Assembly (NCBI GenBank): GCA_038049695.1
Contig: CP142456.1
Location: 80,065,422-80,129,421, forward strand
Length of the DNA stretch: 64,000 nucleotides
Reading direction: 5' to 3'
Source: Cinnamomum chago
Taxonomy: Eukaryota; Streptophyta; Magnoliopsida; Laurales; Lauraceae
This document shows, piece by piece, positions 41,976 through 64,000 of this stretch. Made by a program: the position numbers and the translations under genes. How positions within the stretch are numbered: the stretch's first letter is position 1; each line of letters opens with the position of its first letter. The notes under the pieces are model-generated. The model had not been told where the DNA came from and did no database searches. It worked only from the letters and a program-made list of their open reading frames with translations.

Positions 41976-42145
41976 CTGCACATGAGCTTTAAATGTGTGA
42001 TATTTCAGATTTCATGCTGGAAACATGCAAGGGTAACAGTATCACTCCTAAAAAAAAGACAATAGAATAATGCAAAAACGAAAATTTCAACATACAAGCG
42101 GGTGCTGGTGGGGTGTCAGTCCTTGTCCAGTCTTCTTTCTATATA

Positions 42146-43307
42146 TATTTTAATGCAGGGATGCAGTTGACTTTCGCATTTGGAAGCCCCATTCTGCAGG
42201 CTTGTTTTCCTAAATGTCTTTTTCTAAGGAGATAGATCCTTATAAAAGGTCTCCTTGTGCAGCAGTGTGGACTGGGCTTGTCCCACCTAGAGTGGACGCA
42301 TTCTATTGGTTGGCAGTGGCGGGTAAAATCTCAAACGCTGATGTTTTGAGAAGGGGATTGGTGTTAGATACAATTTCAGATACTTGTCACCTATGTGGGA
42401 GAGAGATGGAATCAATGGATCATTTTTATTTTTTTTCATTCATTGCGATGTAGATTCATCTATTTAAAGATACTTTCTCAATGAATGTGGAGTGAGTTGG
42501 TGTTTTCCAGGTTTTTTTAATAATGTTGTTAAAGCTTGGACGGGGGACTCCAACAATGGGATAATCTTTCCATTCTTTGGTCAATTTGGAAACAAAGGAA
42601 TGATAGAATATTCAATAGGAAAGAATTGTGATGGGATGACGAGGATCTACTTTCAGCTATTCTCTTGATAGACGATAACATTATGCAAAGTTGGGGAGCT
42701 TGTTTGAAGAGGGGTGTTGTAAAGAAGAATGAATTAGTTCCTTAGCGTTCTCCACCGTGTGAAGTATTAAAATTCAATGTGGATGGAGCGGCAAAAGGAA
42801 AACCGAGGTTGGCTGGCATAGTGGCTAGAATGGGAGGCGTTCTAAGAAATCATAAGGGGAAGTTATTTATCTGTTCTCTAAGCATGTAGGGATCAAAGAC
42901 TCTAATGAAGTAGAAGTTATGGCAGTTTTGGAAGCTCTTCGTGTTTATCATACCTTATTTCATCATTTTCTTATTGTAGAGTGTGATTCAGTTAGAGCTA
43001 TATCTTGGTTGGAATCTTTGAGGGGGCCATGGAAAATGCAATTCCTACTCAACGAAATCAAACTTCTAATATCAGATACGCAGGTCACGTTTCACATTAA
43101 TAGATCTACAAACGAGATGGCAGATTCTTTAGCCAAGCAAGGGTGTTAGAACATGTAATTTAAGTGTTTCTATTTTGTAGTTGGTGGCTGGTACATTTCT
43201 CCTGTACCGCTTCAACTATGAGGAGTGTCTTTTGTTTGCTCAGGGCTATGTTGTATTTGTTCTTTCTTCAATAAAATTTTACTGTTCCTGATAGGAAAAA
43301 AAAAAAA
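42146..43307 (+). mobile_element. 5'-truncated LINE 3' end (zf-RVT, RNase H, 3'UTR, poly-A), founder of the array
   Basis: Translation shows the zinc-finger region that follows reverse transcriptase in plant LINEs (42214-42453: GLVPPRVDAFYWLAVAGKIS, CHLCGREMESMDHFYF). After frameshifts comes an RNase H domain: first catalytic Asp in FNVDGAAKG near 42780, then EVMAVLEAL, VECDSVRAISW and MADSLAK, with stop at 43147-43149. An in-frame TAG near 42885 disables it. The 3'UTR has AATAAA at 43270 and a poly-A run at 43296-43307. The 5' limit is approximate. It lies opposite in strand to the KING1-like gene, about 170 bp upstream of its first visible exon. Its RNase H second half, 3'UTR and about 165 bp of 3' flank form the monomer of the adjacent array. 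Confidence 0.82.
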
Positions 43308-43472
43308 CACTCAACACACAGCATTTGGTATGTTGAATGAGAAGTAGTTATGATTTATGAAACTATAGCTCCTAGTGAGCAAGAAAAATAGAAAAAGTTA
43401 ATGTGTTTCAAATATAAACAATTTGGTGGATTGAAACTATAATTTGTTTGGCCTTCATGTGACAACTGCTTA
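42805..43472 (+). repeat. Array unit 1 (founder, A-like)
   Basis: Differs from all others in reading GGTTGGCTGGCATAGTGGCTAGAATGG (others CTCGCATAG and AGCATGG) and in a Trp-Leu-Glu rather than Trp-Val-Glu in its RNase H frame (42919-43149). Confidence 0.9.
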
Positions 43473-44143
43473 GAGGTTGGCTCGCATAGTGGCTAGCATG
43501 GGAGGCGTTCTAAGAAATCATAAGGAGAAGTTATTTATCTGTTCTCTAAGCATGTAGGGATCAAAGACTCTAATGAACTAGAAGTTATGGCAGTTTTGGA
43601 AGCTCTTCGTGTTTATCATACCTTATTTCATCATTTTCTTATTGTAGAGTGTGATTCAGTTAGAGCTATATCTTGCGTGGAATCTTTGAGGGGGGCATGG
43701 AAAATGCAATTCCTATTCAACGAAATCAAACTTCTAATATCAGATATGCAGGTCACATTTCACATTAATAGATCTACAAACGAGATGGCAGATTCTTTAG
43801 CCAAGCAAGGGTGTTAGAACATGTAATTTAAGTGTTTCTATTTTGTAGTTGGTGGCTGGTACATTTCTCCTGTACTGCTTCAACTATGAGGGGTGTCTTT
43901 TGTTTGCTCAAGGCTATGTTGTATTTGTTCTTTCTTCAATAAAATTTTACTGTTCCTGATAGGAAAAGAAAAAAAAAACACTCAACACACAGCATTTGGT
44001 ATGTTGAATGAGAAGTAGTTATGATTTACAAAACAATAGCTCCAAGTGAGCAAGAAAAATAGAAAAAGTTAATGTGTTTCAAATATAAACAATTTGGTGG
44101 ATTGAAACTATAATTTGTTTGGCCTTCATGTGACAACTGCTTA
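43473..44143 (+). repeat. Array unit 2 (B)
   Basis: 76-codon frame at 43587-43817, with Cys in place of Trp (AISCVES). Tail carries the variants ACAAAACAATAG and CCAAGTGAGC. Confidence 0.9.
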
Positions 44144-44811
44144 GAGGTTGGCTCGCATAGTGGCTAGCATGGGAGGCGTTCTAAGAAATCATAAGGGGAA
44201 GTTATTTATCTGTTCTCTAAGCATGTAGGGATCAAAGACTCTAATGAAGTAGAAGTTATGGCAGTTTTGGAAGCTCTTCGTGTTTATCATACCTTATTTC
44301 ATCATTTTCTTATTGTAGAGTGTGATTCAGTTAGAGCTATATCTTGGGTGGAATCTTTGAGGGGGCCATGGAAAATGCAATTCCTACTCAACGAAATCAA
44401 ACTTCTAATATCAGATACGCAGGTCACGTTTCACATTAATAGATCTACAAACGAGATGGCAGATTCTTTAGCCAAGCAAGGGTGTTAGAACATGTAATTT
44501 AAGTGTTTCTATTTTGTACTTGGTGGCTGGTACATTTCTCCTGTACCGCTTCAACTATGAGGAGTGTCTTTTGTTTGCTCAGGGCTATGTTGTATTTGTT
44601 CTTTCTTCAATAAAATTTTACTGTTCCTGATAGGAAAAAAAAAAAACACTCAACACACAGCATTTGGTATGTTGAATGAGAAGTAGTTATGATTTATGAA
44701 ACTATAGCTCCTAGTGAGCAAGAAAAATAGAAAAAGTTAATGTGTTTCAAATATAAACAATTTGGTGGATTGAAACTATAATTTGTTTGGCCTTCATGTG
44801 ACAACTGCTTA
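44144..44811 (+). repeat. Array unit 3 (A)
   Basis: 76-codon frame at 44258-44488. Tail variant TTTTGTACTTGGTGG, shared with units 12 and 21. Confidence 0.9.
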
Positions 44812-45482
44812 GAGGTTGGCTCGCATAGTGGCTAGCATGGGAGGCGTTCTAAGAAATCATAAGGAGAAGTTATTTATCTGTTCTCTAAGCATGTAGGGAT
44901 CAAAGACTCTAATGAACTAGAAGTTATGGCAGTTTTGGAAGCTCTTCGTGTTTATCATACCTTATTTCATCATTTTCTTATTGTAGAGTGTGATTCAGTT
45001 AGAGCTATATCTTGGGTGGAATCTTTGAGGGGGGCATGGAAAATGCAATTCCTATTCAACGAAATCAAACTTCTAATATCAGATATGCAGGTCACATTTC
45101 ACATTAATAGATCTACAGACGAGATGGCAGATTCTTTAGCCAAGCAAGGGTGTTAGAACATGTAATTTAAGTGTTTCTATTTTGTAGTTGGTGGCTGGTA
45201 CATTTCTCCTGTACTGCTTCAGATATGAGGGGTGTCTTTTGTTTGCTCAGGGCTATGTTGTATTTGTTCTTTCTTCAATAAAATTTTACGGTTCCTGATA
45301 GGAAAAGAAAAAAAAAACACTCAACACACAGCATTTGGTATGTTGAATGAGAAGTAGTTATGATTTTCGAAACTATAGCTCCTAGTGAGCAAGAATAATA
45401 GAAAAAGTTAATGTGTTTCAAATATAAACAATTTGGTGGATTGAAACTATAATTTGTTTGGCCTTCATGTGACAACTGCTTA
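44812..45482 (+). repeat. Array unit 4 (B)
   Basis: 76-codon frame at 44926-45156 with Asp for Asn (STDEM). Private variants CTTCAGATATGAGG and TTTTACGGTTCC. Confidence 0.9.
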
Positions 45483-46153
45483 GAGGTTGGCTCGCATAGT
45501 GGCTAGCATGGGAGGCGTTCTAAGAAATCATAAGGAGAAGTTATTTATCTGTTCTCTAAGCATGTAGGGATCAAAGACTCTAATGAAGTAGAAGTTATGG
45601 CAGTTTTGGAAGCTCTTCGTGTTTATCATACCTTATTTCATCATTTTCTTATTGTAGAGTGCGATTCAGTTAGAGCTATATCTTGGGTGGAATCTTTGAG
45701 GAGGGCATGGAAAATGCAATTCCTATTCAACGAAATCAAACTTCTAATATCAGATATGCAGGTCACATTTCACATTAATAGATCTACAAACGAGATGGCA
45801 GATTCTTTAGCCAAGCAAGGGTGTTAGAACATGTAATTTAAGTGTTTCTATTTTGTAGTTGGTGGCTGGGACATTTCTCCTGTACTGCTTCAACTATGAG
45901 GGGTGTCTTTTGTTTGCTCAGGGCTATGTTGTATTTGTTCTTTCTTCAATAAAATTTTACTGTTCCTGATAGGAAAAGAAAAAAAAAACACTCAACACAC
46001 AGCATTTGGTATGTTGAATGAGAAGTAGTTATGATTTACGAAACTATAGCTCCTAGTGAGCAAGAATAATAGAAAACGTTAATGTGTTTCAAATATAAAC
46101 AATTTGGTGGATTGAAACTATAATTTGTTTGGCCTTCATGTGACAACTGCTTA
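45483..46153 (+). repeat. Array unit 5 (B, RRAW variant)
   Basis: 76-codon frame at 45597-45827 with Gly to Arg (GAGGAGGGCATGG), shared only with unit 6. Confidence 0.9.
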
Positions 46154-46828
46154 GAGGTTGGCTCGCATAATGGCTAGCATGGGAGGCGTTCTAAGAAATC
46201 ATAAGGGGAAGTTATTTATCTGTTCTCTAAGCATGTAGGGATCAAAGACTCTAATGAAGTAGAAGTTATGGCAGTTTTGGAAGCTCTTCGTGTTTATCAT
46301 ACCTTATTTCATCATTTTCTTATTGTAGAGTGTGATTCAGTTAGAGCTATATCTTGGGTGGAATCTTTGAGGAGGGCATGGAAAATGCAATTCCTATTCA
46401 ACGAAATCAAACTTCTAATATCAGATATGCAGGTCACATTTCACATTAATAGATCTACAAACGAGATGGCAGATTCTTTAGCCAAGCAAGGGTGTTAGAA
46501 CATGTAATTTAAGTGTTTCTATTTTGTAGTTGGTGGCTGGTACATTTCTCCTATACCGCTTCAACTATGAGGAGTGTCGTTTGTTTGCTCAGGGCTATGT
46601 TGTATTTGTTCTTTCTTCAATAAAATTTTACTGTTCCTGATAGGAAAAAAAAAAAAAAAAAAACACTCAACACACAGCATTTGGTATGTTGAATGAGAAG
46701 TAGTTATGATTTATGAAACTATAGCTCCTAGTGAGCAAGAAAAATAGAAAAAGTTAATGTGTTTCAAATATAAACAATTTGGTGGATTGAAACTATAATT
46801 TGTTTGGCCTTCATGTGACAACTGCTTA
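46154..46828 (+). repeat. Array unit 6 (B coding part, A tail: recombinant)
   Basis: The frame at 46268-46498 is the RRAW variant of B, but the 3' part is A type (CTATACCGCTTC, GAGGAGTGTCG) with a long poly-A. Evidence of exchange between subtypes. Confidence 0.9.
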
Positions 46829-47509
46829 GAGGTTGGCTCGCATAGTGGCTAGCATGGTAGGCGTTCTAAGAAATCATAAGCAGAAGTTATTTATCTGTTC
46901 TCTAAGCATGTAGGGATCAAAGACTCTAATGAAGTAGAAGTTATGGCAGTTTTGGAAGCTCTTCGTGTTTATCATACCTTATTTCATCATTTTCTTATTG
47001 TAGAGTGTGATTCAGTTAGAGCTATATCTTGGGTGGAATCTTTGAGGGGGGCATGGAAAATGCAATTCCTATTCAACGAAATCAAACTTCTAATATCAGA
47101 TATGCAGGTCACATTTCACATTAATAGATCTACAAACGAGATGGCAGATTCTTTAGCCAAGCAAGGGTGTTAGAACATGTAATTTAAGTGTTTCTATTTT
47201 GTAGTTGGTGGCTGGGACATTTCTCCTGTACTGCTTCAACTATGAGGGGTGTCTTTTGTTTGCTCAGGGCTATGTTGTATTTTTTCTTTCTTCAAAATTT
47301 TTTTACTGTTCCTGATAGGAAAAGAAAAAAAAAACAAAAAAAAACACTCAACACACAGCATTTGGTATGTTGAATGAGAAGTAGTTATGATTTACGAAAC
47401 TATAGCTCCTAGTGAGCAAGAATAATAGAAAAAGTTAATGTGTTTCAAATATAAACAATTTGGTGGATTGAAACTATAATTTGTTTGGCCTTCATGTGAC
47501 AACTGCTTA
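46829..47509 (+). repeat. Array unit 7 (B, CAG variant)
   Basis: Leader reads CATAAGCAGAAG, shared with units 9 and 11. Frame 46943-47173. The polyadenylation signal is altered (TTCAAAATTTTTTT) and the A tract is lengthened, making it the longest monomer. Confidence 0.9.
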
Positions 47510-48177
47510 GAGGTTGGCTCGCATAGTGGCTAGCATGGGAGGCGTTCTAAGAAATCATAAGGGGAAGTTATTTATCTGTTCTCTAAGCATGTAGGGATCA
47601 AAGACTCTAATGAACTAGAAGTTATGGCAGTTTTGGAAGCTCTTCGTGTTTATCATACCTTATTTCATCATTTTCTTATTGTAGAGTGTGATTCAGTTAG
47701 AGCTATATCTTGGGTGGAATCTTTGAGGGGGCCATGGAAAATGCAATTCCTACTCATCGAAATCAAACTTCTAATATCAGATACGCAGGTCACGTTTCAC
47801 ATTAATAGATCTACAAACGAGATGGCAGATTCTTTAGCCAAGCAAGGGTGTTAGAACATGTAATTTAAGTGTTTCTATTTTGTAGTTGGTGGCTGGTACA
47901 TTTCTCCTATACCGCTTCAACTATGAGGAGTGTCGTTTGTTTGCTCAGGGCTATGTTGTATTTGTTCTTTCTTCAATAAAATTTTACTGTTCCTGATAGG
48001 AAAAAAAAAAAACACTCAACACACAGCATTTGGTATGTTGAATGAGAAGTAGTTATGATTTATGAAACTATAGCTCCTAGTGAGCAAGAAAAATAGAAAA
48101 AGTTAATGTGTTTCAAATATAAACAATTTGGTGGATTGAAACTATAATTTGTTTGGCCTTCATGTGACAACTGCTTA
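47510..48177 (+). repeat. Array unit 8 (A, LLIEIK variant)
   Basis: Frame 47624-47854 with Asn to Ile, shared with unit 12. Tail has CTATACCGC and GAGTGTCGTTTG as in unit 6. Confidence 0.9.
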
Positions 48178-48522
48178 GAGGTTGGCTCGCATAGTGGCTA
48201 GCATGGTAGGCGTTCTAAGAAATCATAAGCAGAAGTTATTTATCTGTTCTCTAAGCATGTAGGGATCAAAGACTCTAATGAAGTAGAAGTTATGGCAGTT
48301 TTGGAAGCTCTTCGTGTTTATCATACCTTATTTCATCATTTTCTTATTGTAGAGTGTGATTCAGTTAGAGCTATATCTTGGGTGGAATCTTTGAGGGGGG
48401 CATGGAAAATGCAATTCCTATTCAACGAAATCAAACTTCTAATATCAGATATGCAGGTCACATTTCACATTAATAGATCTACAAACGAGATGGCAGATTC
48501 TTTAGCCAAGCAAGGGTGTTAG

Positions 48523-48804
48523 TGTAAAGTAATAGACCCACAGGTCAGCTCAACCTAATGGGTCAGTTTGACCCATGTATTGGGTCAGCCTTGTATGAGT
48601 TGTAAACAGATTAGATAGATATTAGTTGCCTTAGTTAAGGCTGTAATTGTGTAATCAGATCTCTAATGAGATCCTCTAATCTAGGCTTTTGTGTATATAT
48701 ATGTATCATTCGTCCATTGATTCAATACAGAAAAACAATTACAACTTCTCTCTCTCTCGTGTATGCTCTGTGATATCTCTGGCTTGGTTCAAGTATCTTC
48801 TACA
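48523..48804 (+). repeat. Copia 5' LTR
   Basis: 282 bp, starting TGTAAAGTAATAG and ending AAGTATCTTCTACA. A TATATATAT run near 48694 is the probable TATA region, with a CTCTCTCTCTCG tract downstream. Confidence 0.95.
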
Positions 48805-48816
48805 TGGTATCAGAGC
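48805..48816 (+). promoter_or_regulatory. Copia primer-binding site
   Basis: TGGTATCAGAGC directly follows the 5' LTR and is the usual plant PBS complementary to the 3' end of initiator methionine tRNA, used to prime minus-strand synthesis. Confidence 0.93.
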
Positions 48817-49471
48817 CCTAGAGCACTGATCGTCTATCCATTCCAGCATAGGAGAAGACCTGTGACGGTTCTGATTGCTTGTAAAAGCACTGTATCGGCT
48901 GTGATCAAAGGTGGCCCACCTATTGATCACCCACTGCCCAGAGAAATCCTCCCATCCTGGTTGACCATAATTCCTGGGAATTATACACATTTTTTCCAGA
49001 TTTCTTGATCATCTGAGGTAGGCCATTCTCTCTGCTTTGTACTTCTCCCGTTTGTGCACATAGTTTTAATCACGACCGTCCAATTTTTTGGTCTCTCAAG
49101 CTTTTATCAAAATTCCACTTGGAGGTGCTTCGGATTTTTGATACAGAGATCACTGTGTGATCTGATCTTCCTCTTGATCATCCAGTGGGGCCCACAGAGC
49201 AAATCTGTGCCCCAAATCAAGGACGCCTGGGCCATTTTTTTGGGTCTTTTGGACTGGTTTTGATCTGGTTGCTTCCTGTGACTGTATTTCTTCATCTGCT
49301 CATTCAGCGGGACCCATAGCACTCATCTGTGATCTATTTCAAGTGCCCTGGACTCATTTACTTACATTTATTCAAGATCTGTTTTGTTCCTGTGGTTGGA
49401 TTTCAATTCTGTTTTGGATCTGGGACTGGATTTCCCATATATTCAGTCTGTGATCACTGTGTCTTGCTCAA

Positions 49472-52400
49472 ATGTCTTCTGATAGACCTGTAACGGGTAT
49501 TACTATTATACTTGATGGCTCAAATTATCCATATTGGTCCCATCTCATGCAAAATTTCCTCAAAGGTCAAAAATTATGGAAATATGTTGCTCAGCAGATC
49601 CCTCCACCAGATAGTAAGGATGCTAAGTTTGAGGAATGGGAAGCTTCCATCGGGAAAATTAATTCTTGGATTGCCAATTCAGTCAATCCATCTATTGGGA
49701 ATCAATTGGCTAAATTCAATTATCCTAAGGACGCTTGGGATCATTTAGCAAGGTTATACACTCAGTCTAATGCTGCTCGAAGGTATCAATTAGAATGGGA
49801 TATTAAAAATGCAGATCAAGGAAATGACTCCATTCATGATTTCTTCATCAAAATGACTGCCTTATGGGACCAACTGGCTCTAATGGAACCCAACTTTAAA
49901 ACAACTGAAGATGCTCACACTTTTGAAGTTTATCGGCAGCAGACTCGTCTTGTTCAATTTCTTATGGCCCTCCGCCCTGATTTTGAACATGTTCGCGGTC
50001 AATTATTACATCGGTCACCACTACCTTTTGTGGATACGGCACTCTCAGAACTTTTGGCAGAGGAACAAACTCAGCTTTCTCTTACAAGGAAGAAACATGT
50101 GGAACCCACACATGTACTATCAGCAAATGTTAGTATCCCAAGGAATGATCGCCCATTTCCATCTGGTACCAATGACTTTTGCAATTATTGTAAGAAGAAA
50201 GGGCACTGGAAACGGGATTGTCCTACCAGACCCCCAAGGCCAACAGATAAGAACAGACCCTCTGGTCAGCAGCCCAATCGTGGTCCCATGCAATCTTATC
50301 AACAGCGACCATATGCAGCCAAAGTTGCTGAAGATGATAGTTTTCTGCCTCCGCAACTGGATCTTACATCTCAGATTCAAGCTATGGTTGATGAGCGCAT
50401 GCAACAGTTGTTTCTGGCTTCCTCCACTGGTTCTGCCTCTCAGATGGTCCCTACACCCTCAGCCTCTGGTTCTGCCATGACCATTTCTGGTCCGTCAGGT
50501 ACTCTTGATTCTACATGGATCTTTGACTCTGGTGCATCCTATCATATGACAAATGATGTTTCCATACTTCATAATTGTCATACTCCTGCTAGCTCTCTCA
50601 CCATCCATACAGCTGATGCCACTCCTCTACCAGTCTCTCTTATTGGCTCTGTTTCAAATAAGTTGATCTCTCTCACTAATGTTTTGTGTGTTCCTCACCT
50701 ATCTATCAACTTAATCTCTGTTAGTCAATTGACTTCATCTGGATTTCTTGTCTCATTTTCTTCTACTGGCTGTTCTGTGCAGGATCCGCGCACCGGGAGA
50801 CAGATTGGGACCGGCCTTAGGTCAGGAGGACTCTACTATCTCCACTCACTGCATCTTCCATCTTCCAGCATTTCACCTGCCGCACTCGTTTCATCTCATT
50901 CACCCTTTGCCCTTTGGCACTCTCGTTTAGGACATTTATCTTTAAATAAAATGAAGCTTTTATTTACTAGTGGTGTATTTGGAAATATTTCTGTATCAGA
51001 CATTTCTACCTGTTTTGGTTGCCAATTTGGTAAACAACATGCTTTACCTTACAATAAAAGCACTTCTTTTACTAATGCTCCTTTTGCTTTGGTACATTCT
51101 GATGTCTGGGGACCTGCCTCTCAGCCAACAAAAGGTGGTTCCATTTATTATGTGCTGTTCATTGATGATTTCACTAGATATACTTGGTTGTATTTAATGA
51201 AAAATCGTTCTGAGTTATACAACATCTACACTGCTTTCTCCACCATGGTTTCCACTCAATTTAAAACGAGGATTAAAATATTCAGGTCTGACTCCGGGGG
51301 AGAATACATGTCCCACAAATTCCGTTCTTACCTGACCAGTCAAGGAACTCTAGCTCAATTATCATGTCCTGCCACACCACAGCAAAATGGTGTAGCAGAA
51401 CGGAAACACAGACATATCCTTGAAACTGCTAGATCCTTGATTTACTCCTCACATGTTCCTTTGCAATTTTGGGGGGAAGCAGCCCTGACTGCAATCTATC
51501 TGATTAACAGAACACCATCCTCTGTCTTATCTGGCACCTCTCCCTATGAAAAATTGTTCTCCTGTAAACCTGACTTGTCCTATCTCAAAGTTTTTGGTTG
51601 CACCTGTTTTGTTCTGTTACATGATAACGAGAGAACCAAACTTTCCCCAAAATCCACTGTCTGTGTCTTTTTAGGGTATGGCATCGAACAGAAAGGCTAT
51701 CGATGCTATGATCCTAAAACCAATAGATTACGGGTCTCTCGTAATGTCACCTTCTTGGAACACATACCTTTCTATTCATTACCTACCCAATCCTCTACTC
51801 CTGCGCAACCTACAGTCTATCCTCTTGATCCCTTTCCAGACCTGTTTCCTTCCGATACCCCTTCTACTCCACCCCTGCAGGTATATCATCGTCGGCCCAA
51901 ACCTCCGTCTGCTCCTTCGGAATCTGCAGCCCCACCTCCTCCTCCTGATCATGGGCCTATCTCCTCTGCTTCAGATGTGCAGGATCCTCCTCAAACTCGA
52001 AGGTATCCAGTACGCACCAGAATCCCTCCCTCTAGATTTGGCTTTGTTTGTACTGATCATTTTTCTCCATCATACAAGTCCTTCCTTGCAGCAATTCATA
52101 CCTTGGCAGAACCACAATCCTATAAGGAGGCCATTGCTCATCCGCACTGGAGGTCTGCCATCGCAGATGAACTTGCAGCTTTGCAGAAAACTCACACATG
52201 GGATCTTGTTCCTCTTCCCCCTGGGAAACGGGCCATCGGCTGCAAATGGATATTTAAGATCAAGACCAAAACTGATGGATCTGTTGATCGATACAAAGCT
52301 CGCTTGGTTGCAAAGGGCTACACACAAGAATATGGGGTCGATTATGAGGAGACTTTTGCTCCAGTTGCTAAGATGACAACTGTCCGTACTTTTATTTCTG

Positions 52401-53413
52401 TTGCCGCTGCTAGGCATTGGCCACTCTATCAGCTTGATGTCAAGAATGCATTTTTGAATGGATTTCTTCAGGAAGAAATATATATGCATCCTCCTCCAGG
52501 CGTCGTGAGACCTCCTCATTCTGTGTGTCGACTCAAACGTGCTTTATATGGACTCAAACAAGCCCCTCGTGCTTGGTTTGAACGGTTTAGCACCAGCATT
52601 ATCAGCATTGGATTTTCTCAGAGTACTCATGATTCCGCTCTCTTCACTCACTACTCACGATCTGGCTGTGTTTTCTTGTTACTCTATGTCGATGATATGA
52701 TTATCACTGGCAATGATGCTACTGGTATTTTATCCTTGAAGAATTTTCTTCATCGACAGTTTGAGATGAAAGATTTGGGCCATCTGCGTTACTTTCTGGG
52801 CATTGAGGTTGCCTACTCTCCCGAAGGATATCTTTTGTCACAAACAAAATACTGCAATGAAGTTCTCCAAAGAGCTGGCCTCACAGATCTTAAGCCTGTC
52901 TCTACTCCTATTGAACATAATTTGAAGCTTCGAACTACTGATGGAGATCTTCTTTCTGATCCGACTCGCTATCGTGAGGTGGTCGGTTGCTTGGTTTATC
53001 TTACCATTACCAGACCAGATATTGCCTATGCGGTACATGTGGTAAGCCAATTTGTTGCGCAACCCACTCATCTTCATTGGGCTGCTGTACTGCGCATATT
53101 GAGATACTTACAAGGAAGTACCAACCGCGCCCTCCTTTTTTCCTCCAGTCCGAATCTGACTCTGCGTTGCTATTCTGATTCCGATTGGGCAGGCGATGTC
53201 AATGACCGTCGCTCTACAACAGGCTTCTCCATTTTTCTTGGCTCCTCTCTCATCTCTTGGAAGAGCAAGAAACAAGAAGTTGTATCACGGTCATCCACTG
53301 AAGCTGAATATCGTGCTATATCTCACACTACTGCTGAAATCATTTGGCTTCACTGGTTACTTAGAGATTTAGGAGTTCTAGTTCCTAAATCTACCCCTCT
53401 ATACGGACAGTGA
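49472..53413 (+). CDS. Copia gag-pol polyprotein, C-terminally truncated by a frameshift
   Basis: The 1313-residue frame has a Copia gag region (about 1-220), a CCHC zinc knuckle (CNYCKKKGHWKRDC, 237-250), an aspartic protease (DSGAS at 352), a GAG-pre-integrase zinc region (LWHSRLGHLS), an integrase with Asp544, Asp607 and Glu643 (35 residues between the last two), a reverse transcriptase with YVDD at 1072-1075, and most of RNase H (Asp1236, Glu1277/1279). The frame stops at 53411 because of a small deletion near 53404. The remaining RNase H and tail read on in another frame from 53406 to a stop at 53682, just inside the 3' LTR. All other catalytic residues looked for are present, so trans-mobilisation is possible. 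With identical LTRs the break is either as recent as the insertion or a sequencing error. Confidence 0.93.
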   Translation: MSSDRPVTGITIILDGSNYPYWSHLMQNFLKGQKLWKYVAQQIPPPDSKDAKFEEWEASIGKINSWIANSVNPSIGNQLAKFNYPKDAWDHLARLYTQSNAARRYQLEWDIKNADQGNDSIHDFFIKMTALWDQLALMEPNFKTTEDAHTFEVYRQQTRLVQFLMALRPDFEHVRGQLLHRSPLPFVDTALSELLAEEQTQLSLTRKKHVEPTHVLSANVSIPRNDRPFPSGTNDFCNYCKKKGHWKRDCPTRPPRPTDKNRPSGQQPNRGPMQSYQQRPYAAKVAEDDSFLPPQLDLTSQIQAMVDERMQQLFLASSTGSASQMVPTPSASGSAMTISGPSGTLDSTWIFDSGASYHMTNDVSILHNCHTPASSLTIHTADATPLPVSLIGSVSNKLISLTNVLCVPHLSINLISVSQLTSSGFLVSFSSTGCSVQDPRTGRQIGTGLRSGGLYYLHSLHLPSSSISPAALVSSHSPFALWHSRLGHLSLNKMKLLFTSGVFGNISVSDISTCFGCQFGKQHALPYNKSTSFTNAPFALVHSDVWGPASQPTKGGSIYYVLFIDDFTRYTWLYLMKNRSELYNIYTAFSTMVSTQFKTRIKIFRSDSGGEYMSHKFRSYLTSQGTLAQLSCPATPQQNGVAERKHRHILETARSLIYSSHVPLQFWGEAALTAIYLINRTPSSVLSGTSPYEKLFSCKPDLSYLKVFGCTCFVLLHDNERTKLSPKSTVCVFLGYGIEQKGYRCYDPKTNRLRVSRNVTFLEHIPFYSLPTQSSTPAQPTVYPLDPFPDLFPSDTPSTPPLQVYHRRPKPPSAPSESAAPPPPPDHGPISSASDVQDPPQTRRYPVRTRIPPSRFGFVCTDHFSPSYKSFLAAIHTLAEPQSYKEAIAHPHWRSAIADELAALQKTHTWDLVPLPPGKRAIGCKWIFKIKTKTDGSVDRYKARLVAKGYTQEYGVDYEETFAPVAKMTTVRTFISVAAARHWPLYQLDVKNAFLNGFLQEEIYMHPPPGVVRPPHSVCRLKRALYGLKQAPRAWFERFSTSIISIGFSQSTHDSALFTHYSRSGCVFLLLYVDDMIITGNDATGILSLKNFLHRQFEMKDLGHLRYFLGIEVAYSPEGYLLSQTKYCNEVLQRAGLTDLKPVSTPIEHNLKLRTTDGDLLSDPTRYREVVGCLVYLTITRPDIAYAVHVVSQFVAQPTHLHWAAVLRILRYLQGSTNRALLFSSSPNLTLRCYSDSDWAGDVNDRRSTTGFSIFLGSSLISWKSKKQEVVSRSSTEAEYRAISHTTAEIIWLHWLLRDLGVLVPKSTPLYGQ

Positions 53414-53636
53414 AAGTGCACGGAAACTTGCCACAAATGATGTCTTCCATGAACGATCCAAACATCTTGAAGTTGACTGTCATTTCATTCGTCAACATGT
53501 TCGGAGTGATACTATAAAGCTCTTCCAGCTTTCATCAGCGACTCAAATAGCAGATTTTTTCACCAATAGTCACTCAGCATCTCGTTTTTTGGAGCTAGTT
53601 TCCAAGCTCTCGATGGTCACATTCTCCCATCCAAAG

Positions 53637-53648
53637 CTTGAGAGGGGG
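53637..53648 (+). other. Copia polypurine tract
   Basis: Purine-rich GAGAGGGGG immediately before the 3' LTR, the expected primer site for plus-strand synthesis. Confidence 0.85.
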
Positions 53649-53930
53649 TGTAAAGTAATAGACCCACAGGTCAGCTCAACCTAATGGGTCAGTTTGACCC
53701 ATGTATTGGGTCAGCCTTGTATGAGTTGTAAACAGATTAGATAGATATTAGTTGCCTTAGTTAAGGCTGTAATTGTGTAATCAGATCTCTAATGAGATCC
53801 TCTAATCTAGGCTTTTGTGTATATATATGTATCATTCGTCCATTGATTCAATACAGAAAAACAATTACAACTTCTCTCTCTCTCGTGTATGCTCTGTGAT
53901 ATCTCTGGCTTGGTTCAAGTATCTTCTACA
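53649..53930 (+). repeat. Copia 3' LTR
   Basis: 282 bp, the same length as the 5' LTR and with no difference found on reading both through. Followed by TSD GTTAG and resumption of array unit 9. Confidence 0.95.
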
Positions 53931-54261
53931 GTTAGAACATGTAATTTAAGTGTTTCCATTTTGTAGTTGGTGGCTGGGACATTTCTCCTGTACTGCTTCA
54001 ACTATGAGGGGTGTCTTTTGTTTGCTCAGGGCTATGTTGTATTTGTTCTTTCTTCAAAAAAATTTTACTGTTCCTGATAGGAAAAGAAAAAAAAAACACT
54101 CAACACACAGCATTTGGTATGTTGAATGAGAAGTAGTTATGATTTACGAAACTATAGCTCCTAGTGAGCAAGAATAATAGAAAAAGTTAATGTGTTTCAA
54201 ATATAAACAATTTGGTGGATTGAAACTATAATTTGTTTGGCCTTCATGTGACAACTGCTTA

Positions 54262-54937
54262 GAGGTTGGCTCGCATAGTGGCTAGCATGGGAGGCGTTCT
54301 AAGAAATCATAAGGGGAAGTTATTTATCTGTTCTCTAAGCATGTAGGGATCAAAGACTCTAATGAAGTAGAAGTTATGGCAGTTTTGGAAGCTCTTCGTG
54401 TTTATCATACCTTATTTCATCATTTTCTTATTGTAGAGTGTGATTCAGTTAGAGCTATATCTTGGGTGGAATCTTTGAGGGGGCCATGGAAAATGCAATT
54501 CCTACTCAGCGAAATCAAACTTCTAATATCAGATACGCAGGTCACGTTTCACATTAATAGATCTACAAACGAGATGGCAGATTCTTTAGCCAAGCAAGGG
54601 TGTTAGAACATGTAATTTAAGTGTTTCTATTTTGTAGTTGGTGGCTGGTACATTTCTCCTGTACCGCTTCAACTATGAGGAGTGTCGTTTGTTTGCTCAG
54701 GGCTATGTTGTATTTGTTCTTTCTTCAATAAAATTTTACTGTTCCTGATAGGAAAAAAAAAAAAAAAAAAAACACTCAACACACAGCATTTGGTATGTTG
54801 AATGAGAAGTAGTTATGATTTATGAAACTATAGCTCCTAGTGAGCAAGAAAAATAGAAAAAGTTAATGTGTTTCAAATATAAACAATTTGGTGGATTGAA
54901 ACTATAATTTGTTTGGCCTTCATGTGACAACTGCTTA
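54262..54937 (+). repeat. Array unit 10 (A)
   Basis: Frame 54376-54606 with Asn to Ser (LLSEIK). Tail has GAGTGTCGTTTG as in units 6 and 8 and a long poly-A. Confidence 0.9.
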
Positions 54938-55609
54938 GAGGTTGGCTCGCATAGTGGCTAGCATGGGAGGCGTTCTAAGAAATCATAAGCAGAAGTTATT
55001 TATCTGTTCTCTAAGCATGTAGGGATCAAAGACTCTAATGAACAAGAAGTTATGGCAGTTTTGGAAGCTCTTCGTGTTTATCATACCTTATTTCATCATT
55101 TTCTTATTGTAGAGTGTGATTCAGTTAGAGCTATATCTTGGGTGGAATCTTTGAGGGGGGCATGGAAAATGCAATTCCTATTCAACGAAATCAAACTTCT
55201 AATATCAGATATGCAGGTCACATTTCACATTAATAGATCTACAAACGAGATGGCAGATTCTTTAGCCAAGCAAGGGTGTTAGAACATGTAATTTAAGTGT
55301 TTCTATTTTGTAGTTGGTGGCTGGTACATTTCTCCTGTATTGCTTCAACTATGAGGGGTGTCTTTTGTTTGCTCAGGGCTATGTTGTATTTGTTCTTTCT
55401 TCAATAAAATTTTACTGTTCCAGATAGGAAAAGAAAAAAAAAAACACTCAACACACAGCATTTGGTATGTTGAATGAGAAGTAGTTATGATTTACGAAAC
55501 TATAGCTCCTAGTGAGCAAGAATAATAGAAAAAGTTAATGTGTTTCAAATATAAACAATTTGGTGGATTGAAACTATAATTTGTTTGGCCTTCATCTGAC
55601 AACTGCTTA
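54938..55609 (+). repeat. Array unit 11 (B, CAG variant)
   Basis: Leader CATAAGCAGAAG and private GAACAAGAAG; frame 55052-55282. Private TATTGCTTC and TTCCAGATAGG in the tail. Confidence 0.9.
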
Positions 55610-56282
55610 GAGGTTGGCTCGCATAGTGGCTAGCATGGGAGGCGTTCTAAGAAATCATAAGGGGAAGTTATTTATCTGTTCTCTAAGCATGTAGGGATCA
55701 AAGACTCTAATGAAGTAGAAGTTATGGCAGTTTTGGAAGCTCTTCGTGTTTATCATACCTTATTTCATCATTTTCTTATTGTAGAGTGTGATTCAGTTAG
55801 AGCTATATCTTGGGTGGAATCTTTGAGGGGGCCATGGAAAATGCAATTCCTACTCATCGAAATCAAACTTCTAATATCAGATACGCAGGTCACGTTTCAC
55901 ATTAATAGATCTACAAACGAGATGGCAGATTCTTTAGCCAAGCAAGGGTGTTAGAACATGTAATTTAAGTGTTTCTATTTTGTACTTGGTGGCTGGTACA
56001 TTTCTCCTGTACCGCTTCAACTATGAGGAGTGTCTTTTGGTTGCTCAGGGCTATGTTGTATTTGTTCTTTCTTAAATAAAATTTTACTGTTCCTGATAGG
56101 AAAAAAAAAAAAAAAAACACTCAACACACAGCATTTGGTATGTTGAATGAGAAGTAGTTATGATTTATGAAACTATAGCTCCTAGTGAGCAAGAAAAATA
56201 GAAAAAGTTAATGTGTTTCAAATATAAACAATTTGGTGGATTGAAACTATAATTTGTTTGGCCTTCACGTGACAAATGCTTA
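55610..56282 (+). repeat. Array unit 12 (A, LLIEIK variant)
   Basis: Frame 55724-55954. Tail with TTGTACTTGG, CTTTTGGTTGC, TTCTTAAATAAAA, GCCTTCACG and ACAAATGC. Confidence 0.9.
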
Positions 56283-56949
56283 GAGGTTGGCTCGCATAGT
56301 GGCTAGCATGGGAGGCGTTCTAAGAAATCATAAGGGGAAGTTATTTATCTGTTCTCTAAGCATGTAGGGATCAAAGACTCTAATGAAGTAGAAGTTATGG
56401 CAGTTTTGGAAGCTCTTCGTGTTTATCATACCTTATTTCATCATTTTCTTATTGTAGAGTGTGATTCAGTTAGAGCTATATCTTGGGTGGAATCTTTGAG
56501 GGGGCCATGGAAAATGCAATTCCTATTCAACGAAATCAAACTTCTAATATCAGATACGTAGGTCACGTTTCACATTAATAGATATACAAACGAGATGGCA
56601 GATTCTTTAGCCAAGCAAGGGTGTTAGAACATGTAATTTAAGTGTTTCTATTTTGTAGTTGGTGGCTGGTACATTTCTCCTGTACCGCTTCAACTATGAG
56701 GAGTGTCTTTTGTTTGCTCAGGGCTATGTTGTATTTGTTCTTTCTTCAATAAAATTTTACTGTTCCTGATAGGAAAAAAAAAAACACTCAACACACAGCA
56801 TTTGGTATGTTGAATGAGAAGTAGTTATGATTTATGAAACTATAGCTCCTAGTGAGCAAGAAAAATAGAAAAAGTTAATGTGCTTCAAATATAAACAATT
56901 TGGTGGATTGAAACTATAATTTGTTTGGCCTTCATGTGACAACTGCTTA
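56283..56949 (+). repeat. Array unit 13 (A/B hybrid, frame broken)
   Basis: The only monomer with an early stop: the frame from 56397 meets TAG in GATACGTAGGTCACG, after about 55 codons. It mixes the A variants GGGGGCC and ACG with the B variant CTATTCAACG. Tail variant GTGCTTCAAAT is shared with units 17 and 22. Confidence 0.9.
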
Positions 56950-57620
56950 GAGGTTGGCTCGCATAGTGGCTAGCATGGGAGGCGTTCTAAGAAATCATAA
57001 GGAGAAGTTATTTATCTGTTCTCTAAGCATGTAGGGATCAAAGACTCTAATGAACTAGAAGTTATGGCAGTTTTGGAAGCTCTTCGTGTTTATCATACCT
57101 TATTTCATCATTTTCTTATTGTAGAGTGTGATTCAGTTAGAGCTATATCTTGGGTGGAATCTTTGAGGGGGGCATGGAAAATGCAATTCCTATTCAACGA
57201 AATCAAACTTCTAATATCAGATATGCAGGTCACATTTCACATTAATAGATCTACAAACGAGATGGCAGATTCTTTAGCCAAGCAAGGGTGTTAGAACATG
57301 TAATTTAAGTGTTTCTATTTTGTAGTTGGTGGCTGGTACATTTCTCCTGTACTGCTTCAACTATGAGGGGTGTCTTTTGTTTGCTCAGGGCTATGTTGTA
57401 TTTGTTCTTTCTTCAATAAAATTTTACTGTTCCTGATAGGAAAAGAAAAAAAAAACACTCAACACACAGCATTTGGTACGTTGAATGAGAAGTAGTTATG
57501 ATTTACGAAACTATAGCTCCTAGTGAGCAAGAATAATAGAAAAAGTTAATGTGTTTCAAATATAAACAATTTGGTGGATTGAAACTATAATTTGTTTGGC
57601 CTTCATGTGACAACTGCTTA
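56950..57620 (+). repeat. Array unit 14 (B)
   Basis: Frame 57064-57294. Tail variant TTTGGTACGTTG shared with units 18 and 23. Confidence 0.9.
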
Positions 57621-58288
57621 GAGGTTGGCTCGCATAGTGGCTAGCATGGGAGGCGTTCTAAGAAATCATAAGGGGAAGTTATTTATCTGTTCTCTAAGCA
57701 TGTAGGGATCAAAGACTCTAATGAACTAGAAGTTATGGCAGTTTTGGAAGCTCTTCGTGTTTATCATACCTTATTTCATCATTTTCTTATTGTAGAGTGT
57801 GATTCAGTTAGAGCTATATCTTGGGTGGAATCTTTGAGGGGGCCATGGAAAATGCAATTCCTACTCAACGAAATCAAACTTCTAATATCAGATACGCAGG
57901 TCACGTTTCACATTAATAGATCTACAAACGAGATGGCAGATTCTTTAGCCAAGCAAGGGTGTTAGAACATGTACTTTAAGTGTTTCTATTTTGTAGTTGG
58001 TGGCTGGTACATTTCTCCTGTACCGCTTCAACTATGAGGAGTGTCTTTTGTTTGCTCAGGGCTATGTTGTATTTGTTCTTTCTTCAATAAAATTTTACTG
58101 TTCCTGATAGGAAAAAAAAAAAACACTCAACACACAGCATTTGGTATGTTGAATGAGAAGTAGTTATGATTTATGAAACTATAGCTCCTAGTGAGCAAGA
58201 AAAATAGAAAAAGTTAATGTGTTTCAAATATAAACAATTTGGTGGATTGAAACTATAATTTGTTTGGCCTTCATGTGACAACTGCTTA
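57621..58288 (+). repeat. Array unit 15 (A)
   Basis: Frame 57735-57965. Private ACATGTACTTTAAG after the stop. Confidence 0.9.
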
Positions 58289-58960
58289 GAGGTTGGCTCG
58301 CATAGTGGCTAGCATGGGAGGCGTTCTAAGAAATCATAAGGAGAAGTTATTTATCTGTTCTCTAAGCATGTAGGGATCAAAGACTCTAATGAAGTAGAAG
58401 TTATGGCAGTTTTGGAAGCTCTTCGAGTTTATCATACCTTATTTCATCATTTTCTTATTGTAGAGTGTGATTCAGTTAGAGCTATATCTTGGGTGGAATC
58501 TTTGAGGGGGGCATGGAAAATGCAATTCCTATTCAACGAAATCAAACTTCTAATATCAGATATGCAGGTCACATTTGACATTAATAGATCTACAAAAGAG
58601 ATGGCAGATTCTTTAGCCAAGCAAGGGTGTTAGAACATGTAATTTAAGTGTTTCTATTTTGTAGTTGGTGGCTGGTACATTTCTCCTGTACTGCTTCAAC
58701 TATGAGGGGTGTCTTTTGTTTGCTCAGGGCTATGTTGTATTTGTTCTTTCTTCAATAAAATTTTACTGTTCCTGATAGGAAAAGAAAAAAAAAAACACTC
58801 AACACACAGCATTTGGTATGTTGAATGAGAAGTAGTTATGATTTACGAAACTATAGCTCCTAGTGAGCAAGAATAATAGAAAAAGTTAATGTGTTTCAAA
58901 TATAAACAATTTGGTGGATTGAAACTATAATTTGTTTGGCCTTCATGTGACAACTGCTTA
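58289..58960 (+). repeat. Array unit 16 (B)
   Basis: Frame 58403-58633 with two private substitutions (FDINRSTKEM). Confidence 0.9.
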
Positions 58961-59628
58961 GAGGTTGGCTCGCATAGTGGCTAGCATGGGAGGCGTTCTA
59001 AGAAATCATAAGGGGAAGTTATTTATCTGTTCTCTAAGCATGTAGGGATCAAAGACTCTAATGAAGTAGAAGTTATGGCAGTTTTGGAAGCTCTTCGTGT
59101 TTATCATACCTTATTTCATCATTTTCTTATTGTAGAGTGTGATTCAGTTAGAGCTATATCTTGGGTGGAATCTTTGAGGGGGCCATGGAAAATGCAATTC
59201 CTACTCAACGAAATCAAACTTCTAATATCAGATACGCAGGTCACGTTTCACATTAATAGATCTACAAACGAGATGGCAGATTCTTTAGCCAAGCAAGGGT
59301 AATAGAACATGTAATTTAAGTGTTTCTATTTTGTAGTTGGTGGCTGGTACATTTCTCCTGTACCGCTTCAACTATGAGGAGTGTCTTTTGTTTGCTCAGG
59401 GCTATGTTGTATTTGTTCTTTCTTCAATAAAATTTTACTGTTCCTGATAGGAAAAAAAAAAAACACTCAACACACAGCATTTGGTATGTTGAATGAGAAG
59501 TAGTTATGATTTATGAAACTATAGCTCCTAGTGAGCAAGAAAAATAGAAAAAGTTAATGTGCTTCAAATATAAACAATTTGGTGGATTGAAACTATAATT
59601 TGTTTGGCCTTCATGTGACAACTGCTTA
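58961..59628 (+). repeat. Array unit 17 (A, early TAA)
   Basis: Frame 59075-59302 ends one codon early (CAAGGGTAATAG), shared only with unit 22. Tail has GTGCTTCAAAT. Confidence 0.9.
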
Positions 59629-60298
59629 GAGGTTGGCTCGCATAGTGGCTAGCATGGGAGGCGTTCTAAGAAATCATAAGGAGAAGTTATTTATCTGTTC
59701 TCTAAGCATGTAGGGATCAAAGACTCTAATGAACTAGAAGTTATGGCAGTTTTGGAAGCTCTTCGTGTTTATCATACCTTATTTCATCATTTTCTTATTG
59801 TAGAGTGTGATTCAGTTAGAGCTATATCTTGGGTGGAATCTTTGAGGGGGGCATGGAAAATGCAATTCCTATTCAACGAAATCAAACTTCTAATATCAGA
59901 TATGCAGGTCACATTTCACATTAATAGATCTACAAACGAGATGGCAGATTCTTTAGCCAAGCAAGGGTGTTAGAACATGTAATTTAAGTGTTTCTATTTT
60001 GTAGTTGGTGGCTGGTACATTTCTCCTGTACTGCTTCAACTATGAGGGGTGTCTTTTGTTTGCTCAGGGCTATGTTGTATTTGTTCTTTCTTCAATAAAA
60101 TTTTACTGTTCCTGATAGGAAAAGAAAAAAAAACACTCAACACACAGCATTTGGTACGTTGAATGAGAAGTAGTTATGATTTACGAAACTATAGCTCCTA
60201 GTGAGCAAGAATAATAGAAAAAGTTAATGTGTTTCAAATATAAACAATTTGGTGGATTGAAACTATAATTTGTTTGGCCTTCATGTGACAACTGCTTA
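59629..60298 (+). repeat. Array unit 18 (B)
   Basis: Frame 59743-59973. Tail has TTTGGTACGTTG. Confidence 0.9.
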
Positions 60299-60966
60299 GA
60301 GGTTGGCTCGCATAGTGGCTAGCATGGGAGGCGTTCTAAGAAATCATAAGGGGAAGTTATTTATCTGTTCTCTAAGCATGTAGGGATCAAAGACTCTAAT
60401 GAAGTAGAAGTTATGGCAGTTTTGGAAGCTCTTCGTGTTTATCATACCTTATTTCATCATTTTCTTATTGTAGAGTGTGATTCAGTTAGAGCTATATCTT
60501 GGGTGGAATCTTTGAGGGGGCCATGGAAAATGCAATTCCTACTCAACGAAATCAAACTTCTAATATCAGATACGCAGGTCACGTTTCACATTAATAGATC
60601 TACAAACGAGATGGCAGATTCTTTAGCCAAGCAAGGGTGTTAGAACATGTAATTTAAGTGTTTCTATTTTGTAGTTGGTGGCTGGTACATTTCTCCTGTA
60701 CCGCTTCAACTATGAGGAGTGTCTTTTGTTTGCTCAGGGCTATGTTGTATTTGTTCTTTCTTCAATAAAATTTTACTGTTCCTGATAGGAAAAAAAAAAA
60801 ACACTCAACACACAGCATTTGGTATGTTGAATGAGAAGTAGTTAAGATTTATGAAACTATAGCTCCTAGTGAGCAAGAAAAATAGAAAAAGTTAATGTGT
60901 TTCAAATATAAACAATTTGGTGGATTGAAACTATAATTTGTTTGGCCTTCATGTGACAACTGCTTA
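60299..60966 (+). repeat. Array unit 19 (A)
   Basis: Frame 60413-60643. Private GTAGTTAAGATTTATG in the tail. Confidence 0.9.
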
Positions 60967-61639
60967 GAGGTTGGCTCGCATAGTGGCTAGCATGGGAGGC
61001 GTTCTAAGAAATCATAAGGAGAAGTTATTTATCTGTTCTCTAAGCATGTAGGGATCAAAGACTCTAATGAACTAGAAGTTATGGCAGTTTTGGAAGCTCT
61101 TTGTGTTTATCATACCTTATTTCATCATTTTCTTATTGTAGAGTGTGATTCAGTTAGAGCTATATCTTGGGTGGAATCTTTGAGGGGGGCATGGAAAATG
61201 CAATTCCTATTCAACGAAATCAAACTTCTAATATCAGATATGCAGGTCACATTTCACATTAATAGATCTACAAACGAGATGGCAGATTCTTTAGCCAAGC
61301 AAGGGTGTTAGAACATGTAATTTAAGTGTTTCTATTTTGTAGTTGGTGGCTGGTACATTTCTCCTGTACTGCTTCAACTATGAGGGGTGTCTTTTGTTTG
61401 CTCAGGGCTATGTTGTATTTGTTCTTTCTTCAATAAAATTTTACTGTTCCTGATAGGAAAAGAAAAAAAAAAAACACTCAACACACAGCATTTGGTATGT
61501 TGAATGAGAAGTAGTTATGATTTACGAAACTATAGCTCCTAGTGAGGAAGAATAATAGAAAAAGTTAATGTGTTTCAAATATAAACAATTTGGTGGATTG
61601 AAACTATAATTTGTTTGGCCTTCATGTGACAACTGCTTA
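60967..61639 (+). repeat. Array unit 20 (B)
   Basis: Frame 61081-61311 with Arg to Cys (EALCVYH). Private GTGAGGAAGAATAATAG. Confidence 0.9.
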
Positions 61640-62307
61640 GAGGTTGGCTCGCATAGTGGCTAGCATGGGAGGCATTCTAAGAAATCATAAGGGGAAGTTA
61701 TTTATCTGTTCTCTAAGCATGTAGGGATCAAAGACTCTAATGAAGTAGAAGTTATGGCAGTTTTGGAAGCTCTTCGTGTTTATCATACCTTATTTCATCA
61801 TTTTCTTATTGTAGAGTGTGATTCAGTTAGAGCTATATCTTGGGTGGAATCTTTGAGGGGGCCATGGAAAATGCAATTCCTACTCAACGAAATCAAACTT
61901 CTAATATCAGATACGCAGGTCACGTTTCACATTAATAGATCTACAAACGAGATGGCAGATTCTTTAGCCAAGCAAGGGTGTTAGAACATGTAATTTAAGT
62001 GTTTCTATTTTGTACTTGGTGGCTGGTACATTTCTCCTGTACCGCTTCAACTATGAGGAGTGTCTTTTGTTTGCTCAGGGCTATGTTGTATTTGTTCTTT
62101 CTTCAATAAAATTTTACTGTTCCTGATAGGAAAAAAAAAAAACACTCAACACACAGCATTTGGTATGTTGAATGAGAAGTAGTTATGATTTATGAAACTA
62201 TAGCTCCTAGTGAGCAAGAAAAATAGAAAAAGTTAATGTGTTTCAACTATAAACAATTTGGTGGATTGAAACTATAATTTGTTTGGCCTTCATGTGACAA
62301 CTGCTTA
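61640..62307 (+). repeat. Array unit 21 (A)
   Basis: Frame 61754-61984. Leader GGAGGCATTC is private; tail TTGTACTTGG is shared with units 3 and 12; private TTCAACTATAAAC. Confidence 0.9.
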
Positions 62308-62975
62308 GAGGTTGGCTCGCATAGTGGCTAGCATGGGAGGCGTTCTAAGAAATCATAAGGAGAAGTTATTTATCTGTTCTCTAAGCATGTAGGGATCAAA
62401 GACTCTAATGAAGTAGAAGTTATGGCAGTTTTGGAAGCTCTTCGTGTTTATCATACCTTATTTCATCATTTTCTTATTGTAGAGTGTGATTCAGTTAGAG
62501 CTATATCTTGGGTGGAATCTTTGAGGGGGCCATGGAAAATGCAATTCCTACTCAACGAAATCAAACTTCTAATATCAGATACGCAGGTCACGTTTCACAT
62601 TAATAGATCTACAAACGAGATGGCAGATTCTTTAGCCAAGCAAGGGTAATAGAACATGTAATTTAAGTGTTTCTATTTTGTAGTTGGTGGCTGGTACATT
62701 TCTCCTGTACCGCTTCAACTATGAGGAGTGTCTTTTGTTTGCTCAGGGCTATGTTGTATTTGTTCTTTCTTCAATAAAATTTTACTGTTCCTGATAGGAA
62801 AAAAAAAAAACACTCAACACACAGCATTTGGTATGTTGAATGAGAAGTAGTTATGATTTATGAAACTATAGCTCCTAGTGAGCAAGAAAAATAGAAAAAG
62901 TTAATGTGCTTCAAATATAAACAATTTGGTGGATTGAAACTATAATTTGTTTGGCCTTCATGTGACAACTGCTTA
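62308..62975 (+). repeat. Array unit 22 (A frame behind a B leader: recombinant)
   Basis: Leader CATAAGGAGAAG is B type, while the frame 62422-62649 is A type with the early TAA of unit 17. Two A-type frames are adjacent here (units 21-22). Confidence 0.9.
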
Positions 62976-63645
62976 GAGGTTGGCTCGCATAGTGGCTAGC
63001 ATGGGAGGCGTTCTAAGAAATCATAAGGAGAAGTTATTTATCTGTTCTCTAAGCATGTAGGGATCAAAGACTCTAATGAACTAGAAGTTATGGCAGTTTT
63101 GGAAGCTCTTCGTGTTTATCATACCTTATTTCATCATTTTCTTATTGTAGAGTGTGATTCAGTTAGAGCTATATCTTGGGTGGAATCTTTGAGGGGGGCA
63201 TGGAAAATGCAATTCCTATTCAACGAAATCAAACTTCTAATATCAGTTATGCAGGTCACATTTCACATTAATAGATCTACAAACGAGATGGCAGATTCTT
63301 TAGCCAAGCAAGGGTGTTAGAACATGTAATTTAAGTGTTTCTATTTTGTAGTTGGTGGCTGGTACATTTCTCCTGTACTGCTTCAACTATGAGGGGTGTC
63401 TTTTGTTTGCTCAGGGCTATGTTGTATTTGTTCTTTCTTCAATAAAATTTTACTGTTCCTGATAGGAAAAGAAAAAAAAACACTCAACACACAGCATTTG
63501 GTACGTTGAATGAGAAGTAGTTATGATTTACGAAACTATAGCTCCTAGTGAGCAAGAATAATAGAAAAAGTTAATGTGTTTCAAATATAAACAATTTGGT
63601 GGATTGAAACTATAATTTGTTTGGCCTTCATGTGACAACTGCTTA
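62976..63645 (+). repeat. Array unit 23 (B)
   Basis: Frame 63090-63320 with Asp to Val (ISVMQ). Tail TTTGGTACGTTG. Confidence 0.9.
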
Positions 63646-64000
63646 GAGGTTGGCTCGCATAGTGGCTAGCATGGGAGGCGTTCTAAGAAATCATAAGGGG
63701 AAGTTATTTATCTGTTCTCTAAGCATGTAGGGATCAAAGACTCTAATGAAGTAGAAGTTATGGCAGTTTTGGAAGCTCTTCGTGTTTATCATACCTTATT
63801 TCATCATTTTCTTATTGTAGAGTGTGATTCAGTTAGAGCTATATCTTGGGTGGAATCTTTGAGGGGGCCATGGAAAATGCAATTCCTACTCAACGAAATC
63901 AAACTTCTAATATCAGATACGCAGGTCACGTTTCACATTAATAGATCTACAAACGAGATGGCAGATTCTTTAGCCAAGCAAGGGTGTTAGAACATGTAAT
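63646..64000 (+). repeat. Array unit 24 (A), cut by the window end
   Basis: Frame 63760-63990 complete; the 3'UTR is cut off at 64000, so the array continues. Confidence 0.9.

Follow-up and report, generated by a model that had tools for sequence, protein, structure and literature searches.

A 41-unit satellite array in Cinnamomum chago, probably grown from the tail of one dead LINE copy

The 64,000-nucleotide stretch of Cinnamomum chago contig CP142456.1 analysed here (the window; C6:80065422-80129421) carries a head-to-tail array in which every unit, in a single orientation, consists of the 3' part of RNase H, the 3' untranslated region (UTR) and the poly-A of a 5'-truncated long interspersed nuclear element (LINE), followed by a non-LINE flank. 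A further 50 kb to the right was also examined, with the window numbering continued rightward past 64000 (extended coordinates), and genome searches were run on the 1.06-Gb assembly. With unit starts located by a search with unit 2 as query, the assembly contains 41 units of 666-681 bp at 42806-75703 (extended coordinates), a span of 32.9 kb that includes a 5.4-kb Copia element. Twenty-four starts lie inside the window (42806-64000) and 17 to its right; the array ends 11,703 bp past the window edge, at C6:80141124, and is located about 4.2 Mb from the end of the 84.4-Mb contig. Within the window, 22 units are complete and uninterrupted, unit 9 is split by the Copia element and unit 24 is cut by the window end, and the complete units share 96.3-99.0% identity with unit 2. 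A first-pass annotation of the window had described a tandem array of LINE 3'-end units of about 670 bp, at least 24 in number and continuing past the window edge, and this description is borne out. Its term macrosatellite has to be given up, because a macrosatellite unit is about a kilobase or more, and a repeat of about 670 bp is by that size convention a satellite. Tandem near-identical units, transposon sequence within the unit and homogenisation identify the array as a transposon-derived satellite; the many loci or high abundance of a classical satellite are not seen, there being one locus of 41 units.

The parent element has the traits of an L1-type LINE, with zf-RVT and RNase H domains, a 3' poly-A and a 5' truncation; plant L1-type LINEs carry both of these domains. 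Its relatives are dispersed in the same genome at 73-85% identity among the scored matches (39 of 434 candidates in the unit search), and 13 of the 39 matches listed outside the array served as outgroups. Unit 1 is continuous with the LINE, as the first-pass annotation had proposed: zf-RVT is matched to the left of the unit, and the alignments to all 13 related copies span its left boundary. Eight of the 13 alignments end at 42104 or 42115 despite more DNA having been compared, which places the 5' truncation near 42100; the other five end further right. The start of RNase H lies to the left of unit 1 in a different frame from the remnant inside the unit, and this piece alone has no Pfam match. 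In the unit frame, RVT_3 was matched in all seven unit pieces tested, and in unit 1 the open remnant is closed by a stop at 43147, with AATAAA at 43270.

Unit 1 is preceded by more of the LINE, and every other unit start by the end of the flank; the later units do begin abruptly inside RNase H, as had been claimed. At the right edge the last unit reaches CAACTGCT and then passes into 113 bp of host DNA beginning CTAGCTTTTC, the arrangement that had been predicted for this edge, and the host DNA was matched once among 40 scored matches. The internal joint from unit to unit reads CAACTGCT-TA-GAGGTTGGCT, where GAGGTTGGCT is the LINE side. Comparison of this joint with the host DNA at the right edge shows no long microhomology there, and the founding joint would therefore have been made without long homology; two filler bases or a 1-2-base overlap would fit equally well. 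The joint pattern had no match in viral_contigs and the unit protein none in plasmids, both of which are collections without plant genomes.

Descent of all units from one LINE copy is indicated by two lesions near the unit start, an insertion of 12 bp and a deletion of a single base, both present in every array unit. The deletion is absent from all 13 related copies; the insertion is absent from 12 of them by a net 12-base gap, and the remaining copy (L020), poorly aligned at this point, lacks it by eye. Across the 41 array rows compared, which comprise all 40 complete units plus the left part of unit 9, there is no gap in the deletion region, and columns 11-23 are identical to unit 1 in 39 rows, with units 6 and 37 differing by a point change. 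The insertion lies about 15 bp from the left breakpoint of the array and is similar to the neighbouring sequence; the insertion and the breakpoint event may be related. The non-LINE flank is shared as the first-pass annotation had stated, with a length in unit 1 of 166 bp and not 165 bp. All 40 scored matches to it (42 candidates) fall inside the array and none was found elsewhere in the genome, in searches that ignore very common words, so that failure to match is not absolute proof of absence. With every scored match to the flank inside this array, the unit is not an old dispersed satellite, the possibility for which a genome-wide check had been suggested.

Two features that the first-pass annotation does not mention are the Copia element in unit 9 and the presence of two kinds of unit. 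The A kind (668 bp) and the B kind (671 bp) differ by ten consensus substitutions and in the poly-A region, and among the window units the mean number of substitutions is 5.6 within A, 7.6 within B and 15.8 between kinds. When kinds were assigned by hand from eight sites, with the mixed units 6 and 41 left out, A and B alternated in 33 of the 38 steps along the remaining 39 units, a value reached by none of 200,000 shuffles. Alternation in the window alone is weaker, at 19 of 22 steps for right halves (p 0.0009) and 18 of 23 for left halves (p 0.009). Units differ by a mean of 14.35 substitutions at lag 1 versus 7.56 at lag 2, the pattern of a higher-order repeat. Neighbours of the same kind are found at 4/5, 12/13, 21/22 and 35/36, and at 5/7 once unit 6 is omitted. 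Units 17-21 recur as units 22-26 with no more than one substitution per unit pair. Unit 22 has the B base at column 53 and A bases thereafter, as would be expected at an exchange point, and unit 6 has a B middle and an A right part; both look recombinant.

The question of which unit is oldest was approached through 44 variable columns that can be polarised with the 13 outgroups. Unit 41 has three derived bases, the fewest among complete units; unit 1 has four, one of them private (column 204), and units 19, 24 and 28 also have four. An ancestral G at column 10, beside its left junction, is retained by unit 1 alone. At columns 243 and 274 the A consensus and unit 1 are derived and B and unit 41 ancestral, and at columns 105, 222 and 403 the B consensus is mostly derived and A, unit 1 and unit 41 are ancestral; at column 53, unit 41 and B have a derived base in common. 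Unit 1 thus keeps the left end of the founder, while its body is that of an ordinary A unit with A-type derived bases. The founder persists as the two edges of the array and not as one intact unit: the visible founder copy of the first-pass annotation survives at the left end of unit 1, and the least derived unit stands at the opposite edge. Interior A units have C at columns 10 and 24, as B does, and a B left end acquired by early exchange between columns 24 and 53 would fit this pattern. Decay of CpG sites was considered as a guide to ancestry and was dropped because the outgroups have T, not C, as the ancestral base at column 274.

We consider it very probable that the tail of the LINE was duplicated with little homology, that the copies diverged into A and B, that dimers were amplified by unequal exchange, and that the Copia element arrived later. 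A 5'-truncated LINE copy would have inserted at the locus and decayed, after which the stretch from inside RNase H to 166 bp past the poly-A would have been tandemly duplicated, with homology at the joint of at most 1-2 bases. The two copies would then have diverged, the left one toward the A kind and the right one toward the B kind. The array would have grown to 41 units through unequal exchange between copies out of alignment, for the most part in the register of the AB dimer, with both extreme ends left where they were, and the Copia element would have landed in unit 9 afterwards. The making of the first joint, the order of events and the choice of unequal exchange over other forms of recombination are the steps that we infer; the unit anatomy, the single locus, the shared lesions, the two edges, the alternation and the copied five-unit block are shown by the sequence. 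The reconstruction agrees with the earlier proposal that a truncated LINE inserted, that its 3' end was duplicated in tandem along with neighbouring host sequence, and that the product was amplified, to which it adds that amplification was mainly in AB dimers. We read the first pair as A on the left and B on the right, with the outer edges having escaped much of the later exchange. It is somewhat more probable than the contrary that the array is bounded on the left by an A copy retaining the original LINE junction and on the right by a pre-B copy retaining the original host junction, the AB dimer having been amplified between them.

Several observations weigh against this reconstruction. A rooted tree of the 40 complete units and six of the 13 outgroups speaks for it with a support of 100 for the array and 93 for B without unit 41, but the placement of the root is weakly supported (49 for A and 52 for unit 41 beside B). 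The body of unit 1 is not visibly ancestral, because in an unrooted tree of the window units it sits inside A (99/98 for that split). Column 24 cannot be polarised with the outgroups, and conversion between kinds blurs the diagnostic sites, columns 53 and 105 splitting A and B uncleanly. Pfam scores, tried as a guide to the ancestral kind, are inconsistent, at 40.1-40.2 bits for three A pieces and 34.5, 31.0, 40.5 and 33.7 bits for four B pieces. The candidate target-site duplication of the LINE is a decayed 13-column match beside the truncation point that 356 of 20,000 random 30-mers equal in score, and no exact duplication of at least seven bases was found; the match is at most suggestive.

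An origin by rolling circle, in which a small circle of the LINE 3' end and flank was replicated as a concatemer that then returned by recombination to the original position in the LINE, would leave the same pair of edges and the same low-homology internal joint. It could still account for the first copies; however, a simple rolling circle yields identical units, and the A/B order and the out-of-register copy of a five-unit block indicate later stepwise exchange, so that we regard it as unlikely. The first duplication could instead have come from recombination of two adjacent LINEs belonging to one family, a usual route to tandem duplication at repeats that is discussed in a review of transposon-derived satellites (PMC9659126). 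Here the right edge is host DNA with no second LINE, the joint lacks long homology, and all units share lesions private to one LINE copy; this explanation is largely refuted and highly improbable, and it would require a second LINE, not seen here, to have disappeared from the right edge.

It is formally conceivable that an older satellite took up the LINE, by insertion or by capture, and that this locus is a derived copy of it, given that the flank has a length of 166 bp, a common length for a satellite monomer. The flank never occurs in the window without an attached LINE and all 40 of its scored genome matches lie in the array, and we give such an origin scarcely any credence. Very doubtful also is an assembly artefact with a far lower true number of units, since 38 of the 40 complete units are distinct in sequence, exact repeats within the array reach 1388 bp at most, and the array is assembled in full as a single N-free contig stretch, the 50 kb to the right of the window being likewise free of N; collapse or inflation by the assembler thus seems unlikely. 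Repeated LINE insertion into one site would explain why every unit finishes with a LINE 3' end and poly-A, but it is refuted by the host flank that the units share, together with the common left breakpoint and the lesions of one dead copy, and can be regarded as practically negligible.

Table 1. Coordinates of the array, its parent LINE and the Copia insertion within the window
Feature	Coordinates	Strand	Evidence
Possible decayed 5' copy of LINE target-site duplication	42087..42099	+	local alignment to flank start: one mismatch, one gap
Dead 5'-truncated LINE copy; start approximate (42100-42115)	42100..43307	+	related-copy alignments; zf-RVT and RVT_3 matches
zf-RVT piece of LINE, only left of unit 1	42214..42447	+	Pfam zf-RVT, E 3.5e-10
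Unit 1, A kind; left edge of array, continuous with LINE	42806..43473	+	
12-bp insertion, exact placement ambiguous; in every unit	42821..42832	+	
Open RNase H remnant of 97 aa, unit 1; recurs across units	42856..43146	+	RVT_3, E 4e-10
LINE poly-A, unit 1	43296..43307	+	
166-bp non-LINE flank, unit 1	43308..43473	+	
Possible 3' copy of target-site duplication	43311..43322	+	
Units 2-8, kinds B A B B mixed B A	43474..48178	+	
Unit 9, B kind, split by Copia	48179..54262	+	
Copia long terminal repeat (LTR) retrotransposon in unit 9, 5408 bp; open frame 49454-53410	48523..53930	+	
Units 10-23	54263..63646	+	
Unit 24, A kind, cut by window end; array continues to unit 41	63647..64000	+	

The Copia element in unit 9 has 282-bp LTRs that are identical over all 282 bases and a site duplication of GTTAG, and it is confined to that unit, as judged by unit lengths. 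An older Copia element lies 113 bp to the right of the array (75817-83950, extended coordinates), with LTR parts that are 96.7% identical, and is flanked by ATTAT. Selection on the 97-aa frame was considered and set aside because the variants in the 24 window units (18 nonsynonymous, 4 synonymous and 2 stop) are near the expected numbers (17.6, 5.4 and 1.0). No function for the array was found, and it is probably best taken as neutral. The region is gene-bearing, because the window includes an 810-aa open PPR repeat frame (1521-3950) and a decayed second copy (27556-29730) about 26 kb away, at 77-86% DNA identity. Elsewhere in the window there are hAT-transposase-like pieces with DUF4371 and a hAT dimerisation domain (18342-19160 and 21954-22481), fragments possibly of another LINE (31173-32581; DUF4283 and, by eye, reverse-transcriptase-like frames) that do not clearly resemble the LINE of the array, two 288-bp copies in tandem that are 98% alike (17197-17775), and an inverted pair with 88% identity over about 1.05 kb (14477-15527 and 25330-26383).

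The first copies of a satellite are usually inferred from old homogenised arrays without a founder. Here the founder lesions, the breakpoints, the first divergence, the dimer stage, units of recombinant type and a recently copied block are all preserved at one assembled locus, so that the corresponding locus in relatives offers a test for models of satellite birth. If the proposed origin is true, the whole course from a single dead LINE to a higher-order array of 41 units is readable at one plant locus.

Satellites derived from LINEs are already a known kind. The review of transposon-derived satellites lists LINE cases from chicken, cetaceans, hamster, seal and Drosophila, and its plant cases come from other element types (PMC9659126); a second review has similar cases plus a further CR1 set in chicken (PMC6947457). 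HinfI (SCR1) of chicken is, like the Cinnamomum array, a tandem satellite made from a LINE 3' UTR, there of CR1, together with part of open reading frame 2 (ORF2) (PMC9659126). It differs in being animal and of the CR1 clade, whereas the array described here is in a plant, includes host flank in its unit, occupies one locus, has both edges readable and is organised in AB dimers. The common cetacean satellite (L1 3' UTR) and 18HT of Drosophila (HeT-A/TART 3' UTR) are likewise derived from LINE 3' sequence, and PROsat of Phodopus and Pvc 20 of seal from L1 ORF2; all four are animal satellites (PMC9659126). PisTR-A, Sobo, CRM1TR and CRM4TR are plant satellites born from retroelements, in contrast to the present case from LTR retrotransposons and not a LINE, and the satellite table of that review holds no plant LINE case (PMC9659126). 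The literature searched, which did not reach most subscription journals, yielded no satellite built from a LINE 3' end in a plant, and the Cinnamomum array would add a plant LINE to a set of LINE-derived satellites that is all animal in that table.

Two plant systems associate LINEs with repeats in other ways. In Cuscuta europaea the association is between the satellite CUS-TR24 and L1-CS, where LINEs insert into an existing satellite (PMC8091179), in contrast to the array described here, in which the LINE 3' end itself forms the unit. Celine, a centromeric LINE of poplar, forms clusters of truncated copies for which nested insertion or regional amplification has been considered (PMC11288735). 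Those clusters are not resolved as a tandem satellite, whereas the Cinnamomum array is one, about 4.2 Mb from the contig end and in a PPR-bearing window. Given that the kind is known, what distinguishes the Cinnamomum array within the literature searched is that both edges of the founder are readable and that its source is a plant LINE.

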